Positions 31,777-56,405 of a DNA stretch of 64,000 bases are shown in pieces. A program made the position numbers and the translations under genes. Source of the DNA: Candidatus Acidulidesulfobacter diazotrophicus. Lineage in GTDB: Bacteria; SZUA-79; Acidulodesulfobacterales; Acidulodesulfobacteraceae. Numbering within the stretch: position 1 is the stretch's first letter; each line of letters begins with the position of its first letter. The notes below the pieces were generated by a model that was not told where the DNA came from, ran no database searches, and saw only the letters and a list, made by a program, of their open reading frames with translations. The stretch spans positions 124,001 through 188,000 of the forward strand of contig SGBB01000001.1 in NCBI GenBank assembly GCA_004195025.1. Direction: 5' to 3'.

Positions 31777-32165
31777 TGTTATTTGGCAGTTTTATTTTAA
31801 ATTTTATTAAAAACACTTAAGAAAGCTCTGTATCTTAGGCGGGAGTGGTTAGCTTGCAATAATTTTAATATATTTATTAATTTTTTATAAATTTAAATTA
31901 AACAAAAATTTAAAATACTATTGTTATTTCGCCAACTTGCTTTGTATGAATTTTAAATTTCACTAGAAATCACATCTAACCATTGTAATACTTTAATTTG
32001 ATACATCTTTAACAGATAAAAAATTTATTTAGGTTGGCGTAGCTTGAAAATATTGAATTTGAATAACATAATTATTGAAAATATGAAAAAAATGTTATAC
32101 TATTACTTAGGTTGGCGAAAACGTCCTTTCAACATATTGCAAACGTTTATGTTGAAGACGGTGCT
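31777..32165 (+). promoter_or_regulatory. CRISPR leader
   Basis: The 389-bp AT-rich, gene-free stretch between cas2 and the first repeat is on the leader side, since the opposite array end has degenerate repeats. The word TTAGGTTGGCG (or TTTAGGTTGGCG) occurs at 32029-32039 and 32107-32117, and an inverted form, CGCCAACTT, near 31930; these may be integration or promoter elements. A weak promoter is possible: TTGAAA at 32075-32080 and TATACT at 32096-32101, though the 15-nt spacing is short. Confidence 0.7.
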
Positions 32166-34441
32166 ATAGAAATGAATGACCCGAATGAGGGGATTGAGAC
32201 AGACGCTATAGACGCTGTCGTTCCTGCTGCCTGTGCGATAGAAATGAATGACCCGAATGAGGGGATTGAGACAAATAATATCTTTGTCTGTTTTATCCCA
32301 CCTATGAAAAAATAGAAATGAATGACCCGAATGAGGGGATTGAGACCATACTGCTCAATATTGAGTTCTCCTTCAACAAATAATAGAAATGAATGACCCG
32401 AATGAGGGGATTGAGACAATGTAATTATCCCTTTTGGAACATAAACATCATCAAATAGAAATGAATGACCCGAATGAGGGGATTGAGACAGGAAAATCTT
32501 TCAGCATGTTAATGCTAAACGCATTACATAGAAATGAATGACCCGAATGAGGGGATTGAGACACTAATAAAGAAACAACATTGTCAGTTTCAATCAAATA
32601 TAGAAATGAATGACCCGAATGAGGGGATTGAGACTGTCTTAAGTTCAGCGTCCTTTCCAATGTAACCTAAATAGAAATGAATGACCCGAATGAGGGGATT
32701 GAGACTCGTGAAAACCAGCCGTACCGTTTCCTTCCATTCCGATAGAAATGAATGACCCGAATGAGGGGATTGAGACCCTACGGGTGTAACCACCGTCGCA
32801 TTGGATGAGCAAATAGAAATGAATGACCCGAATGAGGGGATTGAGACATTTTTCATTTTTTACTAAATTTAATAAAACTTCCTATAGAAATGAATGACCC
32901 GAATGAGGGGATTGAGACGAATATGCCCCCGCGGCGCCTGCAAACTCGCCCAGGCAAATAGAAATGAATGACCCGAATGAGGGGATTGAGACAAAGACGA
33001 ATACGCTTTATAATGCTCTTTACTTAAATAGAAATGAATGACCCGAATGAGGGGATTGAGACGATACTACCATTTTTTAGATATTTCATAGACATCACTG
33101 AAATAGAAATGAATGACCCGAATGAGGGGATTGAGACAATAAAGGAGGGGATACTAGCAATGTTGTTACAAATAAATAGAAATGAATGACCCGAATGAGG
33201 GGATTGAGACAATCTCATTCTTTTCGTTTGTTACTCCATATCTGTTCTTATAGAAATGAATGACCCGAATGAGGGGATTGAGACACATCCCGAAGCGGTT
33301 AATGTTTCAGTGCAGGTATATAGAAATGAATGACCCGAATGAGGGGATTGAGACACATCCCGAAGCGGTTAATGTTTCAGTGCAGGTATATAGAAATGAA
33401 TGACCCGAATGAGGGGATTGAGACATTTGCAAAGCGTCTTGATTTACATTTTTTACAAATTATAGAAATGAATGACCCGAATGAGGGGATTGAGACCCGC
33501 CTAACTGGTCAAGTATATCTCCTGCAATTTGCCTATAGAAATGAATGACCCGAATGAGGGGATTGAGACCTATGTAACTTGTTATTTCTATACCACCACT
33601 TACTTATAGAAATGAATGACCCGAATGAGGGGATTGAGACATTTGCAAAGCGTCTTGATTTACATTTTTTACAAATTATAGAAATGAATGACCCGAATGA
33701 GGGGATTGAGACCCGCCTAACTGGTCAAGTATATCTCCTGCAATTTGCCTATAGAAATGAATGACCCGAATGAGGGGATTGAGACCTATGTAACTTGTTA
33801 TTTCTATACCACCACTTACTTATAGAAATGAATGACCCGAATGAGGGGATTGAGACATTTGCAAAGCGTCTTGATTTACATTTTTTACAAATTATAGAAA
33901 TGAATGACCCGAATGAGGGGATTGAGACCCGCCTAACTGGTCAAGTATATCTCCTGCAATTTGCCTATAGAAATGAATGACCCGAATGAGGGGATTGAGA
34001 CCTATGTAACTTGTTATTTCTATACCACCACTTACTTATAGAAATGAATGACCCGAATGAGGGGATTGAGACTTTACATTCTTTCCAAAAATACCTGTTT
34101 CAATACATTATAGAAATGAATGACCCGAATGAGGGGATTGAGACAATTCGGGGAGCGTGCAAACAAACGCTCCCCTATACAACATAGAAATGAATGACCC
34201 GAATGAGGGGATTGAGACAAAATTCGTGCCTGTTTGTGAACTCAGGCACTGAAAGGGAATAGAAATGAATGACCCGATTGAGGGGATTGAGACAAATTAC
34301 CGATGCTAAAATAATTATTGATATCAAGATATAAAAATGAATGACCCGAATGAGGGGATTGAGACAATATGAACCTCGTCCCCTATCCATTCTAAAGTTG
34401 TCATTTATAGAAATGAATGACCCGATTGAGGGGATTGAGAC
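32166..34441 (+). CRISPR. CRISPR array, 32 repeats and 31 spacers
   Basis: The 35-nt repeat begins ATAGAAATGAATGACC and ends GGGGATTGAGAC. Spacers are 35-41 nt. The last eight repeat bases, ATTGAGAC, match the AUUGAAAC-type 5' tag of type III crRNAs, so transcription is on the plus strand. Repeats 1-29 are invariant. Repeats 30 and 32 carry A-to-T in the CCCGAATGAGG part and repeat 31 has ATAAAAATG, marking 34259-34441 as the old trailer end. Spacers 16 and 17 are identical. Spacers 18-26 are three copies of a three-spacer block with a 216-bp period (repeat starts 33462, 33678, 33894). About 24 spacers are distinct. A further isolated repeat lies at 37731. Confidence 0.98.
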
Positions 34442-42729: not shown

Positions 42730-43863
42730 TCACGATAAAATATTTTTTTTATCCACGTAAATACCGTACCTTTTATTATATTTACCGATTTTTGAAATTT
42801 TATAAACTGCAAATTCAAAAGGATTTAAATGTTGTTTTAATGTTTTATTTATTTTTGAAATATTTTGGCTGAAAAAATCGTCCCCCTTACTGTCTTTTTT
42901 TAAAGATTCTTTTAAACGTTCATACTGCCCGCTATTTTCCGTATAAATAAATTTATAAAATTCTAATAGATTTGCATATAATTCCTGTGAACGCATTTCA
43001 TTTAAAGACATATAGCAATCCGTGCAGTCGCCGCAAAATTCCTGTTCACATTTCTTTTTATTAGATAAAAAAAGATTATAAATGCAAATTTCAATAGGTT
43101 TTAAAATAACTTTTTTATTCCCAAGCAAAAGCGCCCTGTTTTTTAAATCTATAGATATAAGTTTTGTGCCGCAGTAATCTACTTTTTTTTGAATAATGTT
43201 GACAAGGTCATCGTAAAATAATTCATCTTTAATATTTAAAAAATTTCTTAGTCTGACGAATATTATTTCGGAACATACTATTTTAGCGTCTTTAGTGTTG
43301 ATAATTTTAATAATTTTTTCGTTTTTATCTTTTATTTCAATATTTTTTGGAACAGGAGGGATGTAAAAAAAGTCTTTTGTGGATTCAAAATCCGAAGATA
43401 CTAATGTGTGAGAAAGTATATCCTGCTCTCTGCCGTATAGCTGTAAACCTAACGATAAATAAACGCTCATGGTTTTTCTGCCTCCTGCGATAGAGCATAT
43501 AATCCTTGTGCTTTTATCAATAGTCATATTTTTTATAAAATTCACTATTTCATTGCCGATTATAGCACTATCCATATCTGTAGAAATATCTTTTATATAT
43601 GAATCTCCGCCGAGCTGAATCACGGAATTTTCGTTAAATTTTATTTTTTGGCGGCCGATATTATAATCTGATAAAAATTTATAAAATATCCCGCTTTCTT
43701 TTTTTAAAAGTGAATTAATTATTACCTCTTTCCCTGCTGAAGTCGTAAGAACATTAATCTCATCTATCCATACGGGCGGTTTCTTTTCAATAATATAATA
43801 ATATAATGTTTCGGTAATAATCTGCGGGGTTATTCCAGCCACGCATACGAGTATAGTTTTCAT
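42730..43863 (-). CDS. NE0113-family CARF protein with C-terminal winged-helix-like region
   Basis: This 377-residue protein belongs to the NE0113/TIGR02584 CRISPR-associated family (labelled ring nuclease in some databases). The CARF domain shows V-C-V-A-G-I-T-P-Q-I-I-T-E-T-L (residues 6-20), P-P-V-W-I-D-E-I-N-V-L-T-T, and the ligand-loop S-I-A-G-G-R-K-T-M-S-V (124-134), then Y-G-R-E-Q-D-I-L-S-H-T-L-V. The C-terminal part from about 240 resembles a winged helix (L-L-L-G-N-K-K-V-I-L-K-P-I-E) with a four-cysteine cluster C272, C277, C280, C283. It may degrade or sense cyclic oligoadenylate, and the wing could bind DNA. It is alone on its strand, divergent from an outer-membrane protein gene. 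Confidence 0.85.
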   Translation of the reverse strand: MKTILVCVAGITPQIITETLYYYIIEKKPPVWIDEINVLTTSAGKEVIINSLLKKESGIFYKFLSDYNIGRQKIKFNENSVIQLGGDSYIKDISTDMDSAIIGNEIVNFIKNMTIDKSTRIICSIAGGRKTMSVYLSLGLQLYGREQDILSHTLVSSDFESTKDFFYIPPVPKNIEIKDKNEKIIKIINTKDAKIVCSEIIFVRLRNFLNIKDELFYDDLVNIIQKKVDYCGTKLISIDLKNRALLLGNKKVILKPIEICIYNLFLSNKKKCEQEFCGDCTDCYMSLNEMRSQELYANLLEFYKFIYTENSGQYERLKESLKKDSKGDDFFSQNISKINKTLKQHLNPFEFAVYKISKIGKYNKRYGIYVDKKNILS

Positions 43864-45093: not shown

Positions 45094-45501
45094 ATGGTAA
45101 AGTTAAAAATGTATAAAAAGATTATATCCGATTACCTCAAATCAGAGATACAAGCTCTTCGGGCAGTGATTATATTCGGTAGTTTTGCAAATAATTCCGA
45201 AAACAAATACAGCGATATAGATATAGCATTTTTATCTTCAAAAAAAATTTCAAATATACAAAGATGGAAATTACAGGAAGAATTAGCCTCAATTTTAGAC
45301 AGAGATGTCGATTTGGTTGATTTGGAAAGCGCAAGCGATGTTTTTAAATTTCAAATTGCTTCAAGGGGTATTGTTATATATGCCGATGGCAGTAAAGATA
45401 TAGAACTTTATTTAGATAAAATATATACAATATATTTGCAATTGAATGATGATAGAAAAGCTATATTAGAAGATATAAGAAACGGAGTATATTATGTATG
45501 A
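45094..45501 (+). CDS. MntA-type nucleotidyltransferase antitoxin
   Basis: The 135-residue protein shows A-V-I-I-F-G-S-F-A-N-N-S and Y-S-D-I-D-I-A-F-L, the G-S and D-x-D core of minimal nucleotidyltransferases, followed by R-D-V-D-L-V-D-L and A-S-R-G-I-V-I-Y-A-D, as in MntA proteins that adenylylate a HEPN toxin. Its partner is reduced to a ten-codon remnant overlapping the stop codon. The starting codon at 45094 is ATG (M-V-K-L-K-M-Y-K-K); the internal ATG at 45109 is an alternative. Confidence 0.82.
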   Translation: MVKLKMYKKIISDYLKSEIQALRAVIIFGSFANNSENKYSDIDIAFLSSKKISNIQRWKLQEELASILDRDVDLVDLESASDVFKFQIASRGIVIYADGSKDIELYLDKIYTIYLQLNDDRKAILEDIRNGVYYV

Positions 45502-45591: not shown

Positions 45592-46674
45592 ATGAATAAC
45601 ATAATTAAATTATTAAAAAATCATAAAGATTATATAATTTTAAGTATTCTAATTAGTTTATGGCTTATTGTGTTGGGAATACTAAGCGTGTATTTTGCAA
45701 ACATAATAGATGTCTTATTCCAATCCTTATTTCATTCTATAAATAAAAATATCGCATTAATTCTTATTATTAAATCGTTAATTATAATTTGCATTATCAT
45801 CCTGTTAATTTATTTAATATTTAGAAATAAAAAAAGATTTAAATTTTATAGTATTGCCAATGAACAAAATCTCGGTGAAAATAAATTTAAAGCAATTGTT
45901 TTGCCGATATCATCATTATTATTTAGAGATTATAATCAATTAAAGATTGAAGAGAATGGGCAAGAAATTTCAATACAATTTAAGGATAATTTTAGTTTTC
46001 AAATTAAAAATAGCGAAAATAATAATATAGACTGCGTAAATAATTTTTTTAATGAAATAAAAAAATTTGAAAAATTAAAACAAAGTAGATTAGGATTTAA
46101 TTGGGAAGTTCCTTTAAAAATTATTTATAAAATAAAAAAAAATCAAATTAAATGCCCAAATTGTTTAAAGTATATTGTATTATTAGGCACTGAAGGTCAA
46201 TTAAGCTCAAACCGCCATTTCAATAATAATATGCAGCAAAATAACGATTTTAATTCAAGTAACAATAATAATGACAATAGTTCTTACCCGCAATTAGATA
46301 AATTAGAAAAGCTTATGAATATTTTTTTCTCTAATAATTCTGATAATAGCAATGATATAAAAATAATCAAAAGAAAATTAAATGATTTTGAAAATTTTAC
46401 TGAACTTTCTGAAAAATTTGAAGAAATAGAAGAAGACATTAAAAAAGAATACTTTAAAGAATATAACGACAATAAAATTAAAAATTATGAAAATTATAAA
46501 GAAATTAATGATACTGAAATAGCTTATGATATTACAGGAGGACAGAAATTAGTCAGCGTCGTCGGCACATTTTTTTCATTAAAATCTCAAAGCCCTATAT
46601 TATATGTGTCTCAAAATAATAATGATAATATAAAAGTGATAAATGCTATTTATAAAATGGAACCGCCAGAGTAA
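45592..46674 (+). CDS. Membrane-anchored CARF-like protein
   Basis: A 360-residue protein with two membrane helices (about residues 14-36 and 53-77) and a cytoplasmic domain. This domain begins with K-F-K-A-I-V-L-P-I-S-S-L-L (98-110), like the first CARF strand, and ends with A-Y-D313-I-T-G-G-Q-K319-L-V-S-V-V-G and S-P-I-L-Y-V-S-Q, the typical ligand-loop and following strand. Between them are a C188-P-N-C191 pair and an Asn-rich linker (about 210-235). No nuclease or HEPN motif is visible, so the output is probably at the membrane, as in Cam1-like or other TM-CARF proteins. It lies 100 bp before cmr1 on the same strand. Confidence 0.75.
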   Translation: MNNIIKLLKNHKDYIILSILISLWLIVLGILSVYFANIIDVLFQSLFHSINKNIALILIIKSLIIICIIILLIYLIFRNKKRFKFYSIANEQNLGENKFKAIVLPISSLLFRDYNQLKIEENGQEISIQFKDNFSFQIKNSENNNIDCVNNFFNEIKKFEKLKQSRLGFNWEVPLKIIYKIKKNQIKCPNCLKYIVLLGTEGQLSSNRHFNNNMQQNNDFNSSNNNNDNSSYPQLDKLEKLMNIFFSNNSDNSNDIKIIKRKLNDFENFTELSEKFEEIEEDIKKEYFKEYNDNKIKNYENYKEINDTEIAYDITGGQKLVSVVGTFFSLKSQSPILYVSQNNNDNIKVINAIYKMEPPE

Positions 46675-46774: not shown

Positions 46775-47704
46775 ATGGCTTTTTATATAAATAGATTTTC
46801 AATGATTGAAAGGCAAATTTATAAAATAGATATAATAACGCCGATGTTTTTAAGCGGCGCAGAACAGCAAGGCAATGCAGAATTTAGAACCGCAACAGTC
46901 AAAGGCATGTTAAGATTCTGGTGGAGAGCTCTGCATCCTGAGTTAGTAAATAACGGTAATTTTAAAAATTTGAAAGAAAAAGAATCTGAAATATTTGGTG
47001 ATGCAGGAGAAAAATTTGGTAAGAGTAAGGTGAAAATTTCTATTACTTCAGCTAATTTAAAAACTAAAAAATATAGCCCGCTTCCGCATAAAGAAAAAAA
47101 TAATTTTACATATGAATGTTTAGATGTAGGTCAAGGTCTATATTTAACTTTATATGCGCCTGAAGAAATACACAATCTGTTTAGATTTATGTCCATAGCG
47201 GGAGGTTTAGGCAAAAGGTCAAGAAGAGGTTTTGGAAGCTTCAGTATTAATAATGATGACAAATTAAAAAAAATAGACTTAGATATATTATTAAATCTGA
47301 TTAAATCCGTAAACAGCAATAATTTATTTAAGATAGATAATATAGAGCCGAATAAAATTATCTGCGATAAAAAAGATAAATATATAGCGGATAATTTAAT
47401 ATCGGAATACCCTTTTTTAATTGAGATACAGATTGGAAAAAAAATAAAACAATATGGCGACCTGTTAAAAGACATCGGCAAAGCGTCTCACGAACACAAT
47501 TCTGATTACACCGGTTTTGCCAGAGGCAGATGCCGTCTTGCTTCTCCTGTTTATGTGAGCGTAATTAAAATTGAAGACAATTTTATGCCTATTATTAGCT
47601 CATTAAATACTGCTTTTGATAATAAAGGTAACAATAAATCTGCGAATAATTTACCTGATAGAAGTTTGGAATTTAAGAACAAAATATTAAGTTACGGAGA
47701 TTAA
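46775..47704 (+). CDS. cmr1: Cmr1, type III-B RAMP subunit
   Basis: Cmr1 (Cas7-like) caps the crRNA-bound Cmr complex near the 3' end. The 309-residue protein shows T-P-M-F-L-S-G-A near residue 22, V-K-G-M-L-R-F-W-W-R-A-L (the family signature) and the glycine-rich A-G-G-L-G-K-R-S-R-R-G-F-G-S loop. GGAGG stands before the ATG. It opens the six-gene cmr operon; cmr2 starts 1 bp after its stop. Confidence 0.93.
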   Translation: MAFYINRFSMIERQIYKIDIITPMFLSGAEQQGNAEFRTATVKGMLRFWWRALHPELVNNGNFKNLKEKESEIFGDAGEKFGKSKVKISITSANLKTKKYSPLPHKEKNNFTYECLDVGQGLYLTLYAPEEIHNLFRFMSIAGGLGKRSRRGFGSFSINNDDKLKKIDLDILLNLIKSVNSNNLFKIDNIEPNKIICDKKDKYIADNLISEYPFLIEIQIGKKIKQYGDLLKDIGKASHEHNSDYTGFARGRCRLASPVYVSVIKIEDNFMPIISSLNTAFDNKGNNKSANNLPDRSLEFKNKILSYGD

Positions 47705-47705
47705 A

Positions 47706-50573
47706 ATGGCTTGGAAAAAACCTGAAACAAATTACTGGGATAATAAATTTGCATCATATATGCATGACCCTGTTGATAAGGCTTTAGATATAAAAGGACA
47801 TGTAGAAAGGGCAAGCGAGCTTATGCAATTGTATGGTCTTGCTATGCCAAATAACGAATTTTGGAAAAAGGCTGACGGCATAGCATCCGGTTTTGAACGA
47901 GGACAAATTACAGGATATATTTCAGATGAAAATAAAAGCGGTTCCGTTGATTTTTTAAAAAGTCCTATAATTACTCATCCGATTGGAAATGAATTTCATT
48001 TAAAAATAGATATGAATAATATTGACCCTAAAGCAGTTTGGAATGACCTGAAAAATTTTATTACTAAAGAAATCGGTATAAAACCGGGCGATGGGGGTTA
48101 TTCCGACAATTTTAAAGGTAACCCTAACGATTTTGCGGTAGCAAGGTTTTTTTATACACATTTAGTTTTGAGGTTTCAGCTTTCACAGGAAAATATTGGA
48201 AATATAGGGGGTTTGTGGCATAGATTGCCCGCCGACACCAGATTTCCAGATCATAGCATATGGCAGCATAATGCTCTTGTATCGGCTATACAATCCTGTT
48301 TTGAGCTTGCAGGAAATAATGACGATCTGGGGATTATGGTATTTAGTATTACGCCTGTGCAGGGTTTTATTGGAAAATCAAGGAAATTAAGAGATTACTG
48401 GACAAGTTCAGTTTTATTGTCTTGGCTTGCGTTTGAAGGTATAAAATGGGTTATGGAAAACTTAGGTCCTGACCATATAATTTACCCCTCTTTAATAGAT
48501 CAGGCATTGGTTAAAGAATACCTGAAAAATGAGTGTAAAATTGAAAAAATAAATGATATTTTTTTAAACAATAATAATAAAATTGCCTCTTTCCCTAATA
48601 AATTTTTATTCTTAATTCCATTTAATTATGCAAGCGAAATAGCCGAAGAAATAGAAAAATATATAAAGAGCAAATGGGCAGAAATAAACGATTTAGTTTT
48701 AGAGGAACTTTCAAATAAATTAAAAAGCAATGTAGATGAAAGCGGCATTGAACATATCAAATCTATGTTTAATAGACAAAACAGCCATTTTTGGGATATT
48801 CAGTGGGCAACTTCAAGGATTTTGGAAAAAAAAGATATTGATGATATTAATATTAATATAGGCGGAGGCATTAAAGATTTATTATCCGAAAAAAATTATA
48901 AGGCGCAATCTGAATTACTTAATATTTTTTTAAAAATGATAAAAAATAAAGAAAATTATGAAAAATCCGGCAAAGGGATACTGTATTCCTCCACCCATTC
49001 GCTTTGTCAATCAGCGTTGGCTGTTCAGAAAACTATAAAAACAGTTGAAAGACAACCTGAACCCGGAGAAAAGTGCCAGATGTGCGGAGAGTTTGAAGTT
49101 GTGCATGACAAAAAATATCAAAACAATATAACTGCTAATCAATATAAAAACGATATAAAAAATTTTTGGGAAAATTTAAGCAATAGATTTGGTAAGCAAA
49201 ATATTAAAGAAAATGAAAAATTATGCTCTATATGCCTAACCAAAAGAATTGCATATATGGCTTTGCAAAATCAAAATAAAGATAGTGAAAAAGGTCATAA
49301 AAAACATATTTTATATAGCGCATTTAAAGAAGCCGAAAATTTTCCTTCCACGACTTATATATCTTTGTATAATGATTTTAAAGCAAACGGGATTGTAAAC
49401 GAACAAGAGAAATTGGATAAGGCTCGGCAGATTTACGAAAATGAAGATATTCAAGTAGATAATCGCGATAGATATTATGCAATTTTATTGATGGACGGCG
49501 ATTTAATGGGGAAACTTGTAAACGGAGAAACAATTGCATCTACATGGGAGTCAATAATGCACCCCGATATAGTTGTAGTTGAAAAAATTAAAAATGATAA
49601 GCTTGAAGGTGATTATAATAAATTATGGCGAGAAATATTTAATAAAGAAAACATTCAAAGACGTCTTATTACTCCATCAATTCATGCCGCTATATCCGAG
49701 TCTTTAGGCGATTTTGCCTTATATGGCGTTGCTCCTATTGTAGAAAAATATGACGGAAGACTGATTTATGCAGGCGGGGATGATGTTTGCGCTGTTTTGC
49801 CAATAGATAATGCTTTACAAGCTGCAAAAAAAATTCAGGAATATTATATTTCTTCGTTTAGAATGATTAAAAAAATTAATAAAAAAGACAAAGAAAATAA
49901 AAAAGAAATAGAAAGTATAGAATCTATTGAGTTAAAAAAAGATGAAAAATGGCTGCCTGAAATAGGAAAATTATCGGTTAATCTTGGCATGGGTGAAAAT
50001 ATTACAATATCCGCCGGTATTTTAATTTGTCACCATAAAGAAAATTTATCGGAAATGATAAAAAGAGCGCATGAACTTTTAGATAATAAAGCTAAAAAAG
50101 AAGGCGGACGAAATGCAGTTGCCATAGAATTAAGGAAAAGGAGCGGAGGCAGCAGGTATTTTATTAGCAAATGGGATGACGAAAGATTATCGGCTTTCGA
50201 AGATTTAATAAATGAGAAAAAAGTCGGCGCTGATTTATCAAGATCTCTTGCTTACAGATTTGAAAAATTTAAAGACGGAATAGATTCTATATTAACTTTA
50301 AAGGAGCCTATTAATAAAACAGATTTATTAAACAAGTTTGTTTTAGCGCAGTTAAAAAGGTCTGGTTTAAACAAAATGGAAGATGGACAATCTGATGATG
50401 ATAAAAAATTATTAATAAAATTATTAATAAAATTATCTGAAGATATAAGGAAAATAATTGTAGATGATAATAATTTTAGCAACGAAGGGCTTATTATAGC
50501 CGGATTTTTAACAAACGATGATAATGTAAATAAAAATAATAAAAACAAGAACGAGGTAAACAGAAATGATTAA
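47706..50573 (+). CDS. cas10: Cmr2 (Cas10), cyclic oligoadenylate synthase subunit
   Basis: Cas10 is the large subunit of the type III-B complex. Target RNA binding activates its HD DNase and its palm domain, which makes cyclic oligoadenylates. Both are intact here: H20-D21-P-V-D-K with G-H-V-E-R-A at the N-terminus, D597-G-D599 in the first palm and G690-G-D-D693 in the second. A zinc element is formed by C457-x-x-C460 and C507-x-x-C510. At 955 residues it is of normal length. It overlaps cmr3 by 8 bp. An intact G-G-D-D agrees with the four CARF-type proteins encoded nearby. Confidence 0.96.
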   Translation: MAWKKPETNYWDNKFASYMHDPVDKALDIKGHVERASELMQLYGLAMPNNEFWKKADGIASGFERGQITGYISDENKSGSVDFLKSPIITHPIGNEFHLKIDMNNIDPKAVWNDLKNFITKEIGIKPGDGGYSDNFKGNPNDFAVARFFYTHLVLRFQLSQENIGNIGGLWHRLPADTRFPDHSIWQHNALVSAIQSCFELAGNNDDLGIMVFSITPVQGFIGKSRKLRDYWTSSVLLSWLAFEGIKWVMENLGPDHIIYPSLIDQALVKEYLKNECKIEKINDIFLNNNNKIASFPNKFLFLIPFNYASEIAEEIEKYIKSKWAEINDLVLEELSNKLKSNVDESGIEHIKSMFNRQNSHFWDIQWATSRILEKKDIDDININIGGGIKDLLSEKNYKAQSELLNIFLKMIKNKENYEKSGKGILYSSTHSLCQSALAVQKTIKTVERQPEPGEKCQMCGEFEVVHDKKYQNNITANQYKNDIKNFWENLSNRFGKQNIKENEKLCSICLTKRIAYMALQNQNKDSEKGHKKHILYSAFKEAENFPSTTYISLYNDFKANGIVNEQEKLDKARQIYENEDIQVDNRDRYYAILLMDGDLMGKLVNGETIASTWESIMHPDIVVVEKIKNDKLEGDYNKLWREIFNKENIQRRLITPSIHAAISESLGDFALYGVAPIVEKYDGRLIYAGGDDVCAVLPIDNALQAAKKIQEYYISSFRMIKKINKKDKENKKEIESIESIELKKDEKWLPEIGKLSVNLGMGENITISAGILICHHKENLSEMIKRAHELLDNKAKKEGGRNAVAIELRKRSGGSRYFISKWDDERLSAFEDLINEKKVGADLSRSLAYRFEKFKDGIDSILTLKEPINKTDLLNKFVLAQLKRSGLNKMEDGQSDDDKKLLIKLLIKLSEDIRKIIVDDNNFSNEGLIIAGFLTNDDNVNKNNKNKNEVNRND

Positions 50574-51558
50574 TGACTTATTTTCTTTTAAACCTGTTGA
50601 CACGTTGTTTTTTAAAGGCTCTGAGCCAATGGTGATGGGGGAAAACCATAGTTCTAATTTCAACTTTCCTCCGCCGGCTCATACTATAGAAGGTGCAATC
50701 AGAACAAAACTGTATTTTAAGGATAAGGAAAAATACAAAGACCTTATAAACATTGGCAAACGAAAGGGCGGTTTTAGTATAATTGGACCCATGTTTTTAG
50801 TTGGAGAAGAAATATATGTGCCTGCGCCATACTCGTGGTATAAAGAAGTTAATAAAAAAGAAGAAGATAAAGATATAAATGAAATAAAACGATTTACTAA
50901 TTTTACTGATGTCTCTGAATGTATAAAAAAAACAAAGATTATAAAATCAAAGATTGTCGATAATGATATGATAAAAAATATTATCAAAACAAAAGCTGAA
51001 AAAATATATTGGGCTAAATCTGATAATAGCGAACTTGAATCAACAGGCGGTAGCTGGATAAAACTTAATGATATTCACGGCAGTTCTGACGAGATAAAAC
51101 TTTTTAATAAATTTTATTTTTTTAAGACGGAACCGCATGTCGGTATTGCTTTAAAAGAAGATAGAACTGTCAGGAAATCACATATCTACGCATTTACTCA
51201 TGCAAGGCTTATGGAGGACGTAGAGATTGCATTTGGCATAAACAAGATTGTTCCATTGGATGACGGAGAAGTTTTACAGCTTGGAGCAGAGCAGAGATTT
51301 GGTAGTTTAAAAAGAATAAAAAATTTAGAAGTTTTGGAAGAAAAAAATAAAAGAGAAAATAATTATCATAGCGCGTATATGAGCCTATCTATTTTAGAGG
51401 GAAATCAAGAGACTAACGAACATATAATTGCTACAGGTAAAATTCAATATTTAGGCGGTTGGGATATACATAAAGGTTTTCATAAAGATATGGTAGGCTA
51501 TTTTCCGCCGGGAACGGTTTTAGAAAAAGAAATCTGTAGCGGACTTATTTCAATATAA
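50566..51558 (+). CDS. cmr3: Cmr3, type III-B Cas5-like subunit
   Basis: Cmr3 binds the 5' tag of the crRNA next to Cas10. The 330-residue protein starts with F-K-P-V-D-T-L-F-F-K-G-S-E-P-M, the family opening, then P-P-P-A-H-T-I-E-G-A-I-R-T, G-P-M-F-L-V-G, H-V-G-I-A-L and a C-terminal G-G-W-D-I-H-K-G-F-H-K-D-M. Its start overlaps the cmr2 end, indicating coupled translation. Confidence 0.93.
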   Translation: MINDLFSFKPVDTLFFKGSEPMVMGENHSSNFNFPPPAHTIEGAIRTKLYFKDKEKYKDLINIGKRKGGFSIIGPMFLVGEEIYVPAPYSWYKEVNKKEEDKDINEIKRFTNFTDVSECIKKTKIIKSKIVDNDMIKNIIKTKAEKIYWAKSDNSELESTGGSWIKLNDIHGSSDEIKLFNKFYFFKTEPHVGIALKEDRTVRKSHIYAFTHARLMEDVEIAFGINKIVPLDDGEVLQLGAEQRFGSLKRIKNLEVLEEKNKRENNYHSAYMSLSILEGNQETNEHIIATGKIQYLGGWDIHKGFHKDMVGYFPPGTVLEKEICSGLISI

Positions 51559-51595
51559 CTATTAATTATTAACATATTAAGGAGGTTGGAACAAG

Positions 51596-52567
51596 ATGGA
51601 CAGAAATACGTCAATTTTGTCGTTATATGCAATTTCACCGATTCATGCCGGAAGCGGGGCTGCCGTATCTACTGTGGATTTGCCCATACAAAGAGAAAGG
51701 ATTACTAATTATCCATGTATCCAGGCTTCAGCGCTTAAAGGAGCAATGAGGTCTCATTTTAGGGATTTTATATCTAAAAAAGATAGGTATCATAAATCAG
51801 ATTCAAACAAAGAGTTGATAAATTACATTTTTGGATCCGATGAGCAGGATAAATGGAGTAAAAATGATGACTCTATGCCAGGAGCAATATCAGTATCAGA
51901 TGCGAAACTTCTCGCATTTCCAATGAGGTCAAATATTGCACCTTTTGTGTGTGTAATATGCCCTACAATTATTAAGAGATTAAAAAGGGATTTGGAATTT
52001 GCAGGTTTATATTTGAACGATGACGATGCGCTAAGCAAACCTGATTTATCTAATGTGTTATCTGGCGTAATAAATGATACAGCTATCGTTATTAAAGGTA
52101 ATTTTAAGGATGAAAATAGTGCTGCGATAATTCTTGAAGATGCAGTCGTCAAAATTAATACTCAAGAACCTATTAATATTAATTTTATCAATGATAATTT
52201 TCCTGAAATTGATTATTTACTGTTAATTTCTGATGAAATGTTTGATTATTGCATTTCAAACTGCACTGAAATCCAAACAAATGTTAAAATTAATTCCGAA
52301 ACAGGGACATCGCAAGACGGCGCTCTTCGTTATCAGGAATTTCTTCCTTCGGATACCTTGCTTTATAGTGTAGTTAATTTTAAAGATCAAAGGGCTGAAA
52401 CTAAGATAGAAAACTATTTAAAGGCAAATATAATTAAAAACTATGTTGAAGACATAATAAAGGAATTTATTCAAATAGGGGGAGGTGAGACCCTCGGTAA
52501 AGGAATTTGTAAAATAAAATGGATACCAAAAAACAAAAATGAGCAAAACAATGGAGGTCAGAAATGA
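51596..52567 (+). CDS. cmr4: Cmr4, Cas7-like backbone ribonuclease
   Basis: Cmr4 forms the backbone and cuts target RNA at 6-nt intervals. The 323-residue protein has P-I-H-A-G-S-G-A, then V-D28-L-P-I-Q-R-E with the aspartate matching the catalytic residue of known Cmr4 proteins, P-x-I-Q-A-S-A-L-K-G-A-M-R, and a C-terminal G-G-G-E-T-L-G-K-G-I-C. AGGAGG precedes the ATG. Its last codons overlap cmr5 by 4 bp. Confidence 0.95.
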   Translation: MDRNTSILSLYAISPIHAGSGAAVSTVDLPIQRERITNYPCIQASALKGAMRSHFRDFISKKDRYHKSDSNKELINYIFGSDEQDKWSKNDDSMPGAISVSDAKLLAFPMRSNIAPFVCVICPTIIKRLKRDLEFAGLYLNDDDALSKPDLSNVLSGVINDTAIVIKGNFKDENSAAIILEDAVVKINTQEPININFINDNFPEIDYLLLISDEMFDYCISNCTEIQTNVKINSETGTSQDGALRYQEFLPSDTLLYSVVNFKDQRAETKIENYLKANIIKNYVEDIIKEFIQIGGGETLGKGICKIKWIPKNKNEQNNGGQK

Positions 52568-52956
52568 GGACGCTTGGACAGGAAAGATCTCAATTTGCTT
52601 TAGAAAGAATAATAGGAGGAAAGTCTAAGATTAATGAAGATGTTAAATCTTTTACATCTTTTACAGCAGGTGCTCCGACAGTTATATTACAAAACGGATT
52701 TGGTCAAGCTATGGCTTTTTGGCTTTCTAAAAAAAAATCCGATTCCGATAAATATGAGTTTGTTTTAGAGTCCATAAAAGAGTGGTTGATAAAAATAAAG
52801 CCCAGCATATATTCCGATAAAAATTATGAAGATTTTATTTTAAAATTATCAACAATTGACCAGAAAGAATATCTCAGTGCTCAGAAAGAAGCATTATTGC
52901 TTTTAGAATGGATTAAAAGATATACATCCGCTTTTTATATTGATGAAAAAAATTAA
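52564..52956 (+). CDS. cmr5: Cmr5, small subunit
   Basis: The 130-residue helical protein lines the inner filament of the Cmr complex. Recognisable are Q-E-R-S-Q-F-A-L-E-R-I near the N-terminus, L-Q-N-G-F-G-Q-A-M-A-F-W, and A-L-L-L-L-E-W-I-K-R-Y-T-S-A-F, the Cmr5 pattern. GGAGGT lies within the end of cmr4 just ahead of the ATG. Confidence 0.93.
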   Translation: MRTLGQERSQFALERIIGGKSKINEDVKSFTSFTAGAPTVILQNGFGQAMAFWLSKKKSDSDKYEFVLESIKEWLIKIKPSIYSDKNYEDFILKLSTIDQKEYLSAQKEALLLLEWIKRYTSAFYIDEKN

Positions 52957-52972
52957 TCAGGGGAGTAATCAT

Positions 52973-54256
52973 ATGCCAAATAATGCTGTTGTGTATTCAT
53001 TTAACAAAGAAATTAAAGAGATATTGTCAATTGATGCAAATTATAAAAAAGGAAATTTTGGTCTCTGGTTTAATAAATTTATTCCGGTATCAAACGCAAA
53101 CGAGAATTTTCATACCTGTGATGAAAACGGGAAAAAAGAGGAAGCTGTAAATTATTATAAAAAATTCTATAATCGGATGCAAAATAATAGTAATTCACCG
53201 ATTCAAACATTGCTGGAAAATAAACATTTAAATCAGTATTATTTTTATAAATCATTTGAAAGCAAATATGAAACTATTATTATTACCGCCAAACTAATCT
53301 CTCCTCTAATTACAGGTATTGGATTAACTCATCCTAATGAAGTCGGGATGCTATTTGACCATACAATTGGTATACCGTATATCTCAGCTTCATCAATAAA
53401 AGGCGATGTCAGATTTGCGCATACCATAGGATTATTAGACGATTTATATGAAAATCATAAAGATGAAATTAATGAAATTAAAATAAAAAAAAATGATGGA
53501 ACATACGAAGAAAGCAGTTATTTTGATGATGAAGAAGATTGGACGAAGATTCCATTAATTTTTGGAAAAGGCGGAGATAAAGGTAATGTTGGAAGAGTTA
53601 TTTTTTTAGATGCTTATCCTGTAAATGTTCCTGAACTCCACGAAGATATTATGAATCCGCATTACGGCGAATATTATTCTGATGTAAACGCTACTAAGCC
53701 TCCTGCAGATTATTTAACGCCAAAGCCAATAAAATTTCTTACCGTTTCTAAAGAAACAAAATTTATTTTTAGAATTTTAATAAACAAAAAATATAACGAT
53801 TTAAAAGATAATAAAACATTAAAGGATTTGGTATTAACTGCCGTCAGGAAGTCTCTTGAAGAAGAGGGTATAGGAGCAAAAACTGCTGTCGGCTACGGCT
53901 TATTTAATATTGAAAACTTTAGTGAACCTGAATCCATTAAAAAATTAATAAACAAAAAAGAAGATGATGTAAAAAAACATTTAGAAGAGCTGGAAAATAT
54001 AAAAAAAAATGAAGAATTGAAAAATATGTCGGAAGTGGATAAAATTTGCTATCAATTAAAAAATGATTATGAAGAAAGCTATGCAACGAATATATATAAT
54101 AAAATTAACGATATCCAGTACAGCGAAGAAGACAAAAAGAAAATTGCCGGTGAATTAAAAAAAGCATGGGAGAAAGGCGGAAAATGGGATGAAAAAAACG
54201 CATCCAAAAAGCAAAAAGAAAAAATAAAAAAAATAAAATTAATATTACATGAATAA
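52973..54256 (+). CDS. cmr6: Cmr6, Cas7-like subunit
   Basis: Cmr6 occupies the 3' end of the backbone. The 427-residue protein (ATG at 52973, chosen because AGGGGAG lies about 9 nt upstream; the frame opens at 52940) has L-I-S-P-L-I-T-G-I-G, G-I-P-Y-I-S-A-S-S-I-K-G-D-V-R, a P-L-I-F-G segment and I-G-A-K-T-A-V-G-Y-G-L-F. The last 100 residues form a Lys/Glu-rich helical extension not part of the RAMP core. Confidence 0.92.
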   Translation: MPNNAVVYSFNKEIKEILSIDANYKKGNFGLWFNKFIPVSNANENFHTCDENGKKEEAVNYYKKFYNRMQNNSNSPIQTLLENKHLNQYYFYKSFESKYETIIITAKLISPLITGIGLTHPNEVGMLFDHTIGIPYISASSIKGDVRFAHTIGLLDDLYENHKDEINEIKIKKNDGTYEESSYFDDEEDWTKIPLIFGKGGDKGNVGRVIFLDAYPVNVPELHEDIMNPHYGEYYSDVNATKPPADYLTPKPIKFLTVSKETKFIFRILINKKYNDLKDNKTLKDLVLTAVRKSLEEEGIGAKTAVGYGLFNIENFSEPESIKKLINKKEDDVKKHLEELENIKKNEELKNMSEVDKICYQLKNDYEESYATNIYNKINDIQYSEEDKKKIAGELKKAWEKGGKWDEKNASKKQKEKIKKIKLILHE

Positions 54257-54321: not shown

Positions 54322-55566
54322 TTGAGTGCAAAATTGAGCAAAATTCTCATAACTTCTCTTGGAAGCGGAAATAAATCATCAGGCTACAGCAAGGCAAATT
54401 ATTCTATAGGCGGAAAAACCTACGAAGATAAAGAATTTATCGCCGAAGCCTTAGCGGAACATTTAAATATAGATAAGATTTATTTTTTTGGAACGCGCTC
54501 GTCAATATGGGATAGCGTATATAAAAATTTTTCACGTAAAATAAAGAATAGTAATAACAGTTACAGTTATGATATTGAAAGCGGTCTTTACGAAAAAATA
54601 GATTCTAAATCTTTAAACGAAAACGATCTTGAATTAGTATCTGATGTTATTGATGAATATATCGGCATACAAGGATCTAAATGTTTTATTATAGATTACG
54701 GTCTTAATGATGCTGAACTCTGGAATAATTTTAAAAAATTTTTAGAAATTGCAAATTTTACTAACAATAATGATGAAATATATCTTGATATAACACATTC
54801 ATTCAGGTCTTTAGCTATTATGAGTTTTATAATGGTTCAATTTATAGAACAGATTAAAAATTTAGATATAAAAGTAGAAGGTATTTATTACGGTATGTTT
54901 GAATACTCTAAAGAAAATGACGGCATTACTCCTGTAATTGATTTAAAAATGTTTTATATTTTATCGCTATGGATAAGGGCGATAAATAATTTCAAACATT
55001 ACGGAAACGGAGGAATGATTTATGAATTAATTAAAGACGATAGCAGCATAGAAAAAGAAGTTAAAGATGTTTTTACGCATTTTAATAATAATATTTCATT
55101 AGGCAATGTGAATAATATAAAAGAAGCTGTTCAAATAATACAGCGCAGAATGGATGCTATTAGTAGTTCCTCAGATCCTATTATTAAAGAATTTCTTTTA
55201 CCCGGATTGGACGACTTTATTGGTAAATTAACAAGTGCAAAAACAGAATCCATATTTCAGTATAATTTATCAATTTGGTATTATGAAATTAAAAATTATG
55301 CATTATCGTACATAATTTTATCTGAAGCAATTATAACTAAAATCTGCGAAATTAAAAAAACGGATACTAAAGATATTGATGCAAGGAAGACGGCTAAAAA
55401 TACAATAAAAGGTTATGAATTCAATAAAGTTAATGAAATTTACGAGAATGTATCTAAAATAAGAAATTCAATTGCGCATGAAACTGCTTTAAGCGGAAAT
55501 GCAATATCATCTATTAACAATCTGCATAGTTATTTAGAAAAATTGGAGAAATTTTTTATGCAATGA
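54322..55566 (+). CDS. Csx1/TM1812-type CARF-HEPN ribonuclease
   Basis: Csx1-like proteins are RNases activated by cyclic tetra-adenylate. The 414-residue protein starts with I-L-I-T-S-L-G-S-G and A-N-Y-S-I-G-G-K (TM1812-type CARF), has Y-L-D-I-T-H-S-F-R-S-L at about residue 155, typical of the second CARF motif, and a C-terminal HEPN domain with R381-N-S-I-A-H386, the catalytic R-x4-H. The start is TTG at 54322 without a strong ribosome site. It follows cmr6 by 65 bp on the same strand. Confidence 0.9.
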   Translation: MSAKLSKILITSLGSGNKSSGYSKANYSIGGKTYEDKEFIAEALAEHLNIDKIYFFGTRSSIWDSVYKNFSRKIKNSNNSYSYDIESGLYEKIDSKSLNENDLELVSDVIDEYIGIQGSKCFIIDYGLNDAELWNNFKKFLEIANFTNNNDEIYLDITHSFRSLAIMSFIMVQFIEQIKNLDIKVEGIYYGMFEYSKENDGITPVIDLKMFYILSLWIRAINNFKHYGNGGMIYELIKDDSSIEKEVKDVFTHFNNNISLGNVNNIKEAVQIIQRRMDAISSSSDPIIKEFLLPGLDDFIGKLTSAKTESIFQYNLSIWYYEIKNYALSYIILSEAIITKICEIKKTDTKDIDARKTAKNTIKGYEFNKVNEIYENVSKIRNSIAHETALSGNAISSINNLHSYLEKLEKFFMQ

Positions 55567-55665: not shown

Positions 55666-56115
55666 TTATATAAGTTTGTTTTTATCTAAATAATTAATTA
55701 TATTCTTATATGTATCGGCTATCTTTTCAAATAATACTAAAGCCAATTTTATATCCTTAATAATTTCGTCTTGATTAGAAGGATATTCATGCGATAAGTT
55801 ATTTCTTAATTCTCTAATGCCGTTCCATTCGTCCGTATCTTTAATGATTTCTAATTTTTCAAGTTTATCTAAAACATCAATAAATGACATGCTTCTTTTG
55901 TATTCGCCTATTGAATTTAAAACTTCTTTGAACAGCTTATCTCCCATTAAATCCTGTAATTTTGTAAAACGAAAAATAAAAGAATCTATAACTCTTCTTT
56001 TTTCATCATTATCAAAATAATCCGGACTTATATTATCCCATGATTTTATTTCGTTAAAATCGTTTTGAGCTCTTTTGAGATTTATCGTAATTGTCTCGAT
56101 AGTTTCTTTTAACAT
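55666..56115 (-). CDS. HEPN toxin of a HEPN-MNT pair
   Basis: The 149-residue helical protein resembles HepT-like toxins. The near C-terminal I-R-E-L-R-N-N-L-S-H-E-Y gives the R-N-x3-H ribonuclease motif (about residues 103-108). F-R-F-T-K-L-Q-D-L-M-G-D is typical of the family. Its start overlaps the upstream nucleotidyltransferase gene by 7 bp. MNT partners inactivate such toxins by adenylylation of the tyrosine near the H-x-Y. Confidence 0.85.
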   Translation of the reverse strand: MLKETIETITINLKRAQNDFNEIKSWDNISPDYFDNDEKRRVIDSFIFRFTKLQDLMGDKLFKEVLNSIGEYKRSMSFIDVLDKLEKLEIIKDTDEWNGIRELRNNLSHEYPSNQDEIIKDIKLALVLFEKIADTYKNIINYLDKNKLI

Positions 56116-56405
56116 AAAAGCAACCCTTCCGTCCTTGCGGTTTCATATATGCTTTTTTCTTTTGAAGAAGGTGTTTTTACAATCAAATCTATCTTTCTTT
56201 CGGTCGCAAGTTTATGAAAATCCGCCAGAAATTTAATTTCGGTCTGCCTGTCTATATTCTTATGAGTTTCTATATATAAATCTATATCTCCGCCCTTTTT
56301 TTCATCGTAGACCCTGCTCCCGAAAAGATATATTTTTACATTATGACCGAAATATTGCCCTGCTAAATCTATTATCGTATTTTTTTCTAAATTGCTAAGT
56401 CTCAC
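56109..56405 (-). CDS. MNT antitoxin of the HEPN-MNT pair
   Basis: A 98-residue minimal nucleotidyltransferase, with I-Y-L-F-G-S-R-V and G-G-D-I-D-L-Y-I as G-S and D-x-D motifs. The start is GTG at 56405 preceded by AGGGTGAG. It overlaps the HEPN gene, the usual MNT-HEPN organisation. Confidence 0.87.
   Translation of the reverse strand: MRLSNLEKNTIIDLAGQYFGHNVKIYLFGSRVYDEKKGGDIDLYIETHKNIDRQTEIKFLADFHKLATERKIDLIVKTPSSKEKSIYETARTEGLLLC

Follow-up and report, generated by a model that had tools for sequence, protein, structure and literature searches.

Directly upstream of a type III-B CRISPR operon in Candidatus Acidulidesulfobacter diazotrophicus lies a gene for a membrane protein, and the question is what output such a protein would deliver. 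We analysed this gene within the window, the whole stretch of 64,000 nucleotides (contig SGBB01000001.1, positions 124,001 to 188,000 of the forward strand). By analogy with known effectors, the product (TM-CARF) is probably a type III ancillary effector that would be gated by cyclic oligoadenylate (cOA), probably cA4, and would permeabilise the inner membrane of its own cell. The gene and its parts are as follows.

45592–46674, plus strand: gene of the putative two-TM CARF effector; ATG start, 360 aa; ORF, profile and structure evidence
45631–45699, plus strand: TM helix 1, about residues 14–36; hydropathy, AlphaFold2 helix H12–46
45748–45822, plus strand: TM helix 2, about residues 53–77, followed by basic RNKKRFKF; hydropathy and AlphaFold2
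45889–45912, plus strand: CARF strand 1 and motif I KAIVLPIS, residues 100–107; L104, P105 and S107 invariant in the family
46153–46164, plus strand: Cys188-x-x-Cys191 pair; real but not conserved
46198–46284, plus strand: Asn-rich intradomain loop, about residues 203–231 (201–232 in the dN/dS comparison); fastest-evolving and length-variable
46528–46548, plus strand: CARF motif II DITGGQK, residues 313–319; D313 and I314 invariant, T315, G316, G317 and K319 at least 90% conserved

The best hydrophobic 19-residue segments of the protein were residues 15–33 (KD 2.87) and 54–72 (KD 3.35). Basic residues lie at the N-terminus ahead of helix 1 and, as RNKKRFKF, behind helix 2, and these flanks on both sides argue for an N-in/C-in hairpin with both ends in the cytoplasm. 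Both helices and their conserved flanks were present in all relatives compared; a cleavable signal is unlikely because the second helix is conserved. No acidic residue was found in the helix cores (15–33 and 54–72), D40 falling past the core of helix 1. Lys61, close to where helix 2 begins on the outer side, is held at a fixed distance from the juxtamembrane F83 in 10 of 12 relatives. K61 may flank the mouth of a pore, but lysines are common at membrane interfaces. The rest of the protein after both helices is one domain, and the chain ends with it.

That domain was confirmed as CARF by PADLOC profiles together with AlphaFold models and Foldseek comparison. Searches of Pfam, NCBIfam and PDB sequences with the TM-CARF protein alone returned nothing meaningful. 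The PADLOC profile "CARF, 2 TMs" matched at 3.9e-12 (residues 26–350; profile positions 12–194 of 200) and CARF8--CARF_TM at 7.6e-8 (CARF8 labels are PADLOC names throughout); PADLOC two-TM CARF profiles matched 11/11 family members tested, and the Csx1-named PADLOC matches of the protein cover its CARF/TM part. Both AlphaFold2 models, that of the window protein (from 11 input sequences; modest mean pLDDT, 64.6) and that of a compact homologue (78.7), had their strands and helices in CARF order. When these models were compared with the PDB by Foldseek, Can2 and Cam1 came out on top for the window protein and Cam1 took ranks 1–6 (probability 1.00) for the compact homologue; E-values were modest (7.7e-4 to 1e-3), and nearly all top matches were CARF proteins, comprising the CARF folds of Cam1, Can2, Csm6 and Crn1. 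Comparison with a library of viral structures yielded nothing useful.

KAIVLPIS and DITGGQK rank among the most conserved columns in the alignment of relatives, and motif II, which varies as GGQK/GGNK/GGTK across the family, aligns with DITGGRK in Sso2081, a ring nuclease acting on cA4, when the family profile is compared with PDB sequences. No match to a nuclease, HEPN or other catalytic domain was found in Pfam, NCBIfam and PADLOC profile searches. The preliminary description of this DNA, made from the letters alone, had proposed two transmembrane helices joined to a cytoplasmic CARF-like domain, named the I-V-L-P-I-S-S strand and the D-I-T-G-G-Q-K motif, and seen no nuclease residues, and all of this was borne out. 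Of the two outcomes that it had named as fatal, a fold lacking CARF topology and helices forming a cleavable signal, neither emerged from the results above.

It had further suggested a distinct TM-CARF type, on the strength of a Cys pair and an Asn-rich linker. C188 and C191 do exist, but the pair fails as a mark of the family, as the same-genus orthologue L006 has lost one Cys (KHPNC) and the sister genus lacks both; a zinc site at this pair was rejected on the same ground. The Asn-rich stretch is likewise present, but it lies inside the CARF domain, behind the YIVLLGT strand, and not between membrane and CARF, and was discarded as an architectural marker. With neither feature conserved, both are lineage noise rather than type markers, and a two-TM CARF kind is already held in PADLOC-DB.

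The surroundings of the gene in the window comprise these features.

46775–54256, plus strand: type III-B cmr1, cmr2/cas10, cmr3, cmr4, cmr5 and cmr6; complete cmr1-6 set by profiles
54322–55566, plus strand: Csx1-type CARF-HEPN protein (TIGR02221, CARF2; RNSIAH), by profile matches
42730–43863, minus strand: NE0113/CARF5 protein, by profiles; a conserved companion of TM-CARF within the phylum
32164–34307, no strand assigned: CRISPR array of 33 repeat copies; span taken from 30 of the 33 listed, the end perhaps lying a little beyond

As had been noted before, the TM-CARF gene stands directly ahead of cmr1, which starts at 46775 on the same strand after a gap of 100 bp, and no terminator-like site was found between the two. 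The Cas10 of the window retains its HD pair and the GGDD cyclase motif, and synthesis of a messenger is thus expected. Whether an upstream nucleotidyltransferase gene (45094–45501) belongs to the system was also considered; it was set aside, as nothing near the TM-CARF gene in relatives matched it. Just past csx1, at 55666–56405, a nucleotidyltransferase-like gene and a 149-aa gene resemble an MNT/HEPN toxin-antitoxin pair, and similar genes adjoin TM-CARF in L042. Inside the CRISPR array, at 33389–34075, three successive repeat-spacer units form a block that occurs three times in tandem, as identical copies of 255 nt spaced 216 nt apart. The same genome carries a second type III locus (L046; G000:C1, about 212–229 kb) with cas1, Card1/Can2, a 710-aa RAMP protein, a further Cas10 match, a Csx3-like gene and a TM-CARF paralogue that is broken into two frames.

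In two other genomes, G001 and G005, the orthologue (74–75% identical to the window TM-CARF by BLAST) sits just upstream of Cas10, Csm2, Csm3, Csm4 and Csm5-type genes and not of cmr; csm gene profiles were run on G001, and in G005 the genes match these in order, are similar in size and include a Cas10 with GGDD. The Cas10 GGDD motif is intact in both csm loci, NE0113 is encoded close by in both genomes, and G005 also carries Csx1 (87% identical). It appears that the interference module was exchanged while the effectors stayed. One effector standing upstream of either III-A csm or III-B cmr points to a diffusible messenger rather than to contact with the complex.

In the sister genus, six loci have immediately upstream of TM-CARF a gene for a Csx3-like protein of 116–148 aa, which matched PADLOC at 2.5e-4 to 5e-3 (four tested) and contains an invariant TGATAIPVYLVAFH block; a PDB search gave no support. 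Judged by sequence, this neighbour is a weak candidate for a cA4 ring nuclease. Csx3/Crn3 acts as a ring nuclease on cA4, and where a locus contains an effector, ring nucleases have been reported only alongside cA4 effectors (PMC12409355), so that the Csx3-like neighbour, weak as its assignment is, favours cA4 as the messenger. In part of the sister genus (L039:10667–15185, L040:4427–8943 and L042:10716–15245), TM-CARF is followed by three genes, which by profiles run on L039 only encode an unknown 380-aa protein, a HerA-like ATPase and a DruA protein, perhaps another defence system. Genes for MkoA-like (1030 aa) and MkoB-like (437 aa) proteins near the TM-CARF locus in L040 (15218–19633) suggest a defence island.

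The TM-CARF protein could itself be a membrane-anchored ring nuclease, with a CARF domain that degrades cOA and helices that merely tether it, an off-switch and no toxin. Its CARF domain indeed has a Ser behind strand 1, its motif II contains GG-x-K, and the best PDB sequence matches of the family profile are to Crn1/Sso2081. However, the GTS of motif I and the GRK of motif II in Sso2081 are replaced here by LPIS and GGQK, and Q/N/T stands where Sso2081 has an Arg without which it no longer binds cA4 (PMC10018336). Moreover, the loci already encode separate candidate off-switches (the Csx3-like protein and NE0113), and both helices with their conserved flanks have been retained. We therefore consider this alternative unlikely, and a membrane-permeabilising effector remains our preferred reading.

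TM-CARF was found in 13 of the 30 genomes of the phylum. Both TM-CARF and Cas10 occurred in 11 genomes, either one alone in two each and neither in 15 (Fisher p=9e-5, phylogeny ignored; Cas10 counted as matches over the cut-off, leaving out two genomes with only a short GGDEF-like frame). No clear Cas10 was detected in G013 and G017, both draft MAGs, despite the presence of TM-CARF, and in G012, G013 and G019 TM-CARF had no adjacent cas operon in the stretch read. TM-CARF was also associated with NE0113, in that 11/11 genomes with NE0113 carry TM-CARF and none in the phylum has it without TM-CARF (p=1.4e-6, phylogeny ignored). NE0113/CARF5 has a conserved Cys-containing C-terminal region that by eye looks like a winged helix. 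It may be a cOA-dependent regulator and not, as NCBIfam names it, a "Csm6 ring nuclease".

This near-perfect co-occurrence would also suit a membrane-bound sensor that makes no pore of its own and relays the signal to another protein, such as NE0113 as a predicted CARF regulator, and helix 2 indeed lacks an obvious channel-lining polar pattern. NE0113 carries its own CARF domain, however, and the two-helix effectors Cap1 and Csx23 work without NE0113 in heterologous hosts (PMC12642688, PMC11014256), and we regard a relay as unlikely.

Close orthologues of TM-CARF share 92/82/79% identity and distant relatives about 31–43%, with protein lengths of about 325–377 aa. The gene is under purifying selection, as dN/dS in four genomes was 0.18–0.23 over the whole gene and 0.02–0.13 in the motif II region. 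A decayed or decoupled gene kept through linkage to cmr, an idea to which a paralogue elsewhere in this genome, split in two frames (L002 1040–1495 and 1552–2079), lends some colour, is very improbable given this dN/dS of about 0.2 overall and frames that are open in 4/4 genomes. The scan of genome contigs for relatives gave matches only in MAGs apparently of the same phylum, tblastn with family members found none in plasmids and phages, and none were found in viral contigs; spread beyond the phylum rests on the PADLOC profiles and a control match in Sulfolobus acidocaldarius. The MAG names suggest that the hosts are acid-mine-drainage bacteria; in such hosts, acidification of the cytoplasm might be a larger effect of an open pore than depolarisation of the membrane.

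Taken together, we propose the following course for a cOA-gated membrane effector. Upon recognition of target RNA, the Cas10 cyclase would make cOA, most likely cA4, which would be bound by the cytoplasmic CARF domains, probably as dimers. Binding would rearrange the hairpins of an oligomer, probably a tetramer, and so open a pore or lesion with helix 2 as its lining; the inner membrane would be permeabilised, the cell arrested and phage growth stopped. Ring nucleases encoded nearby, Csx3-like in the sister genus, would turn the signal off, and NE0113 would be a possible regulator or ring nuclease. We infer cOA/cA4 binding, oligomer, pore and growth arrest alike from characterised effectors: analogy with Cam1, Cap1 and Csx23 is what makes messenger-gated permeabilisation likely, and the cOA-gated change in membrane permeability that the preliminary description had thought plausible is by that analogy the most plausible output here as well. 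More tentatively, and with somewhat less than even confidence, we suggest that canonical two-fold-symmetric CARF dimers gate a two-helix hairpin pore, and that together with NE0113 and, in the sister genus, the Csx3-like protein this makes up an output module that is portable and moves between III-B and III-A complexes. The near-identical effector set beside Cmr and Csm operons is natural evidence that output and complex are coupled solely through a diffusible messenger.

Membrane effectors of type III CRISPR systems have few worked-out cases, namely Cam1, Csx23 and Cap1. CARF proteins associated with membranes had already been noted in 2014 (PMC4012209). By its profile matches, TM-CARF is a member of a catalogued kind in PADLOC-DB, CARF_2M "CARF, 2 TMs" (PDLC01168) and CARF8--CARF_TM (PDLC01947/01941/01944), with which it shares an N-terminal two-helix part and a CARF domain; compared with the 200-position profile, the proteins here (about 325–377 aa) have extra intradomain insertions, namely strands after CARF strand 1 and the Asn-rich loop. 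Our literature search, which covered few subscription papers, found no paper with an experiment on the two-TM canonical-CARF kind, which apparently has had no bench test so far. The soluble ring nuclease Crn1 Sso2081 shares the DITGG-x-K motif II and the CARF fold and differs in its catalytic GTS/GRK, in place of which the family has LPIS and GGQK/GGNK/GGTK (residues from PMC10018336). Csx23 is a cA4-activated membrane effector with two predicted TM helices and a non-CARF sensor (PMC11014256); it resembles TM-CARF in its two helices, cytoplasmic sensor and type III-B locus, whereas the sensor of TM-CARF has a CARF fold. In Cap1 of Parafilimonas terrae, helix 2 of two lines a pore that widens on cA4, and the sensor is a divergent tetrameric CARFL, with reduced helices and a mixed sheet, plus DUF4579 (PMC12642688). 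TM-CARF shares with it the N-terminal two-TM hairpin, a cytoplasmic domain of a cOA-binding type and an adjoining type III operon; no DUF4579 was found by Pfam, and the model has the canonical CARF order and matches Cam1, Cap1 being absent from the 50 Foldseek matches listed. Cam1 of N. halophilus (206 aa) combines a cA4-binding CARF domain with one TM helix bearing a conserved pore Asp, D17, and causes depolarisation through a predicted tetrameric pore (PMC10808066). It shares with TM-CARF an N-terminal membrane helix, a canonical CARF domain and a type III locus, and provides the top six Foldseek matches of the compact homologue, but TM-CARF has two helices in all relatives, no Asp in the helix cores and 360 aa. 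In this family, a canonical CARF sensor as in Cam1 is joined to a two-helix membrane part like that of Cap1 and Csx23, so that it could tell whether two-fold CARF dimers open a hairpin pore.
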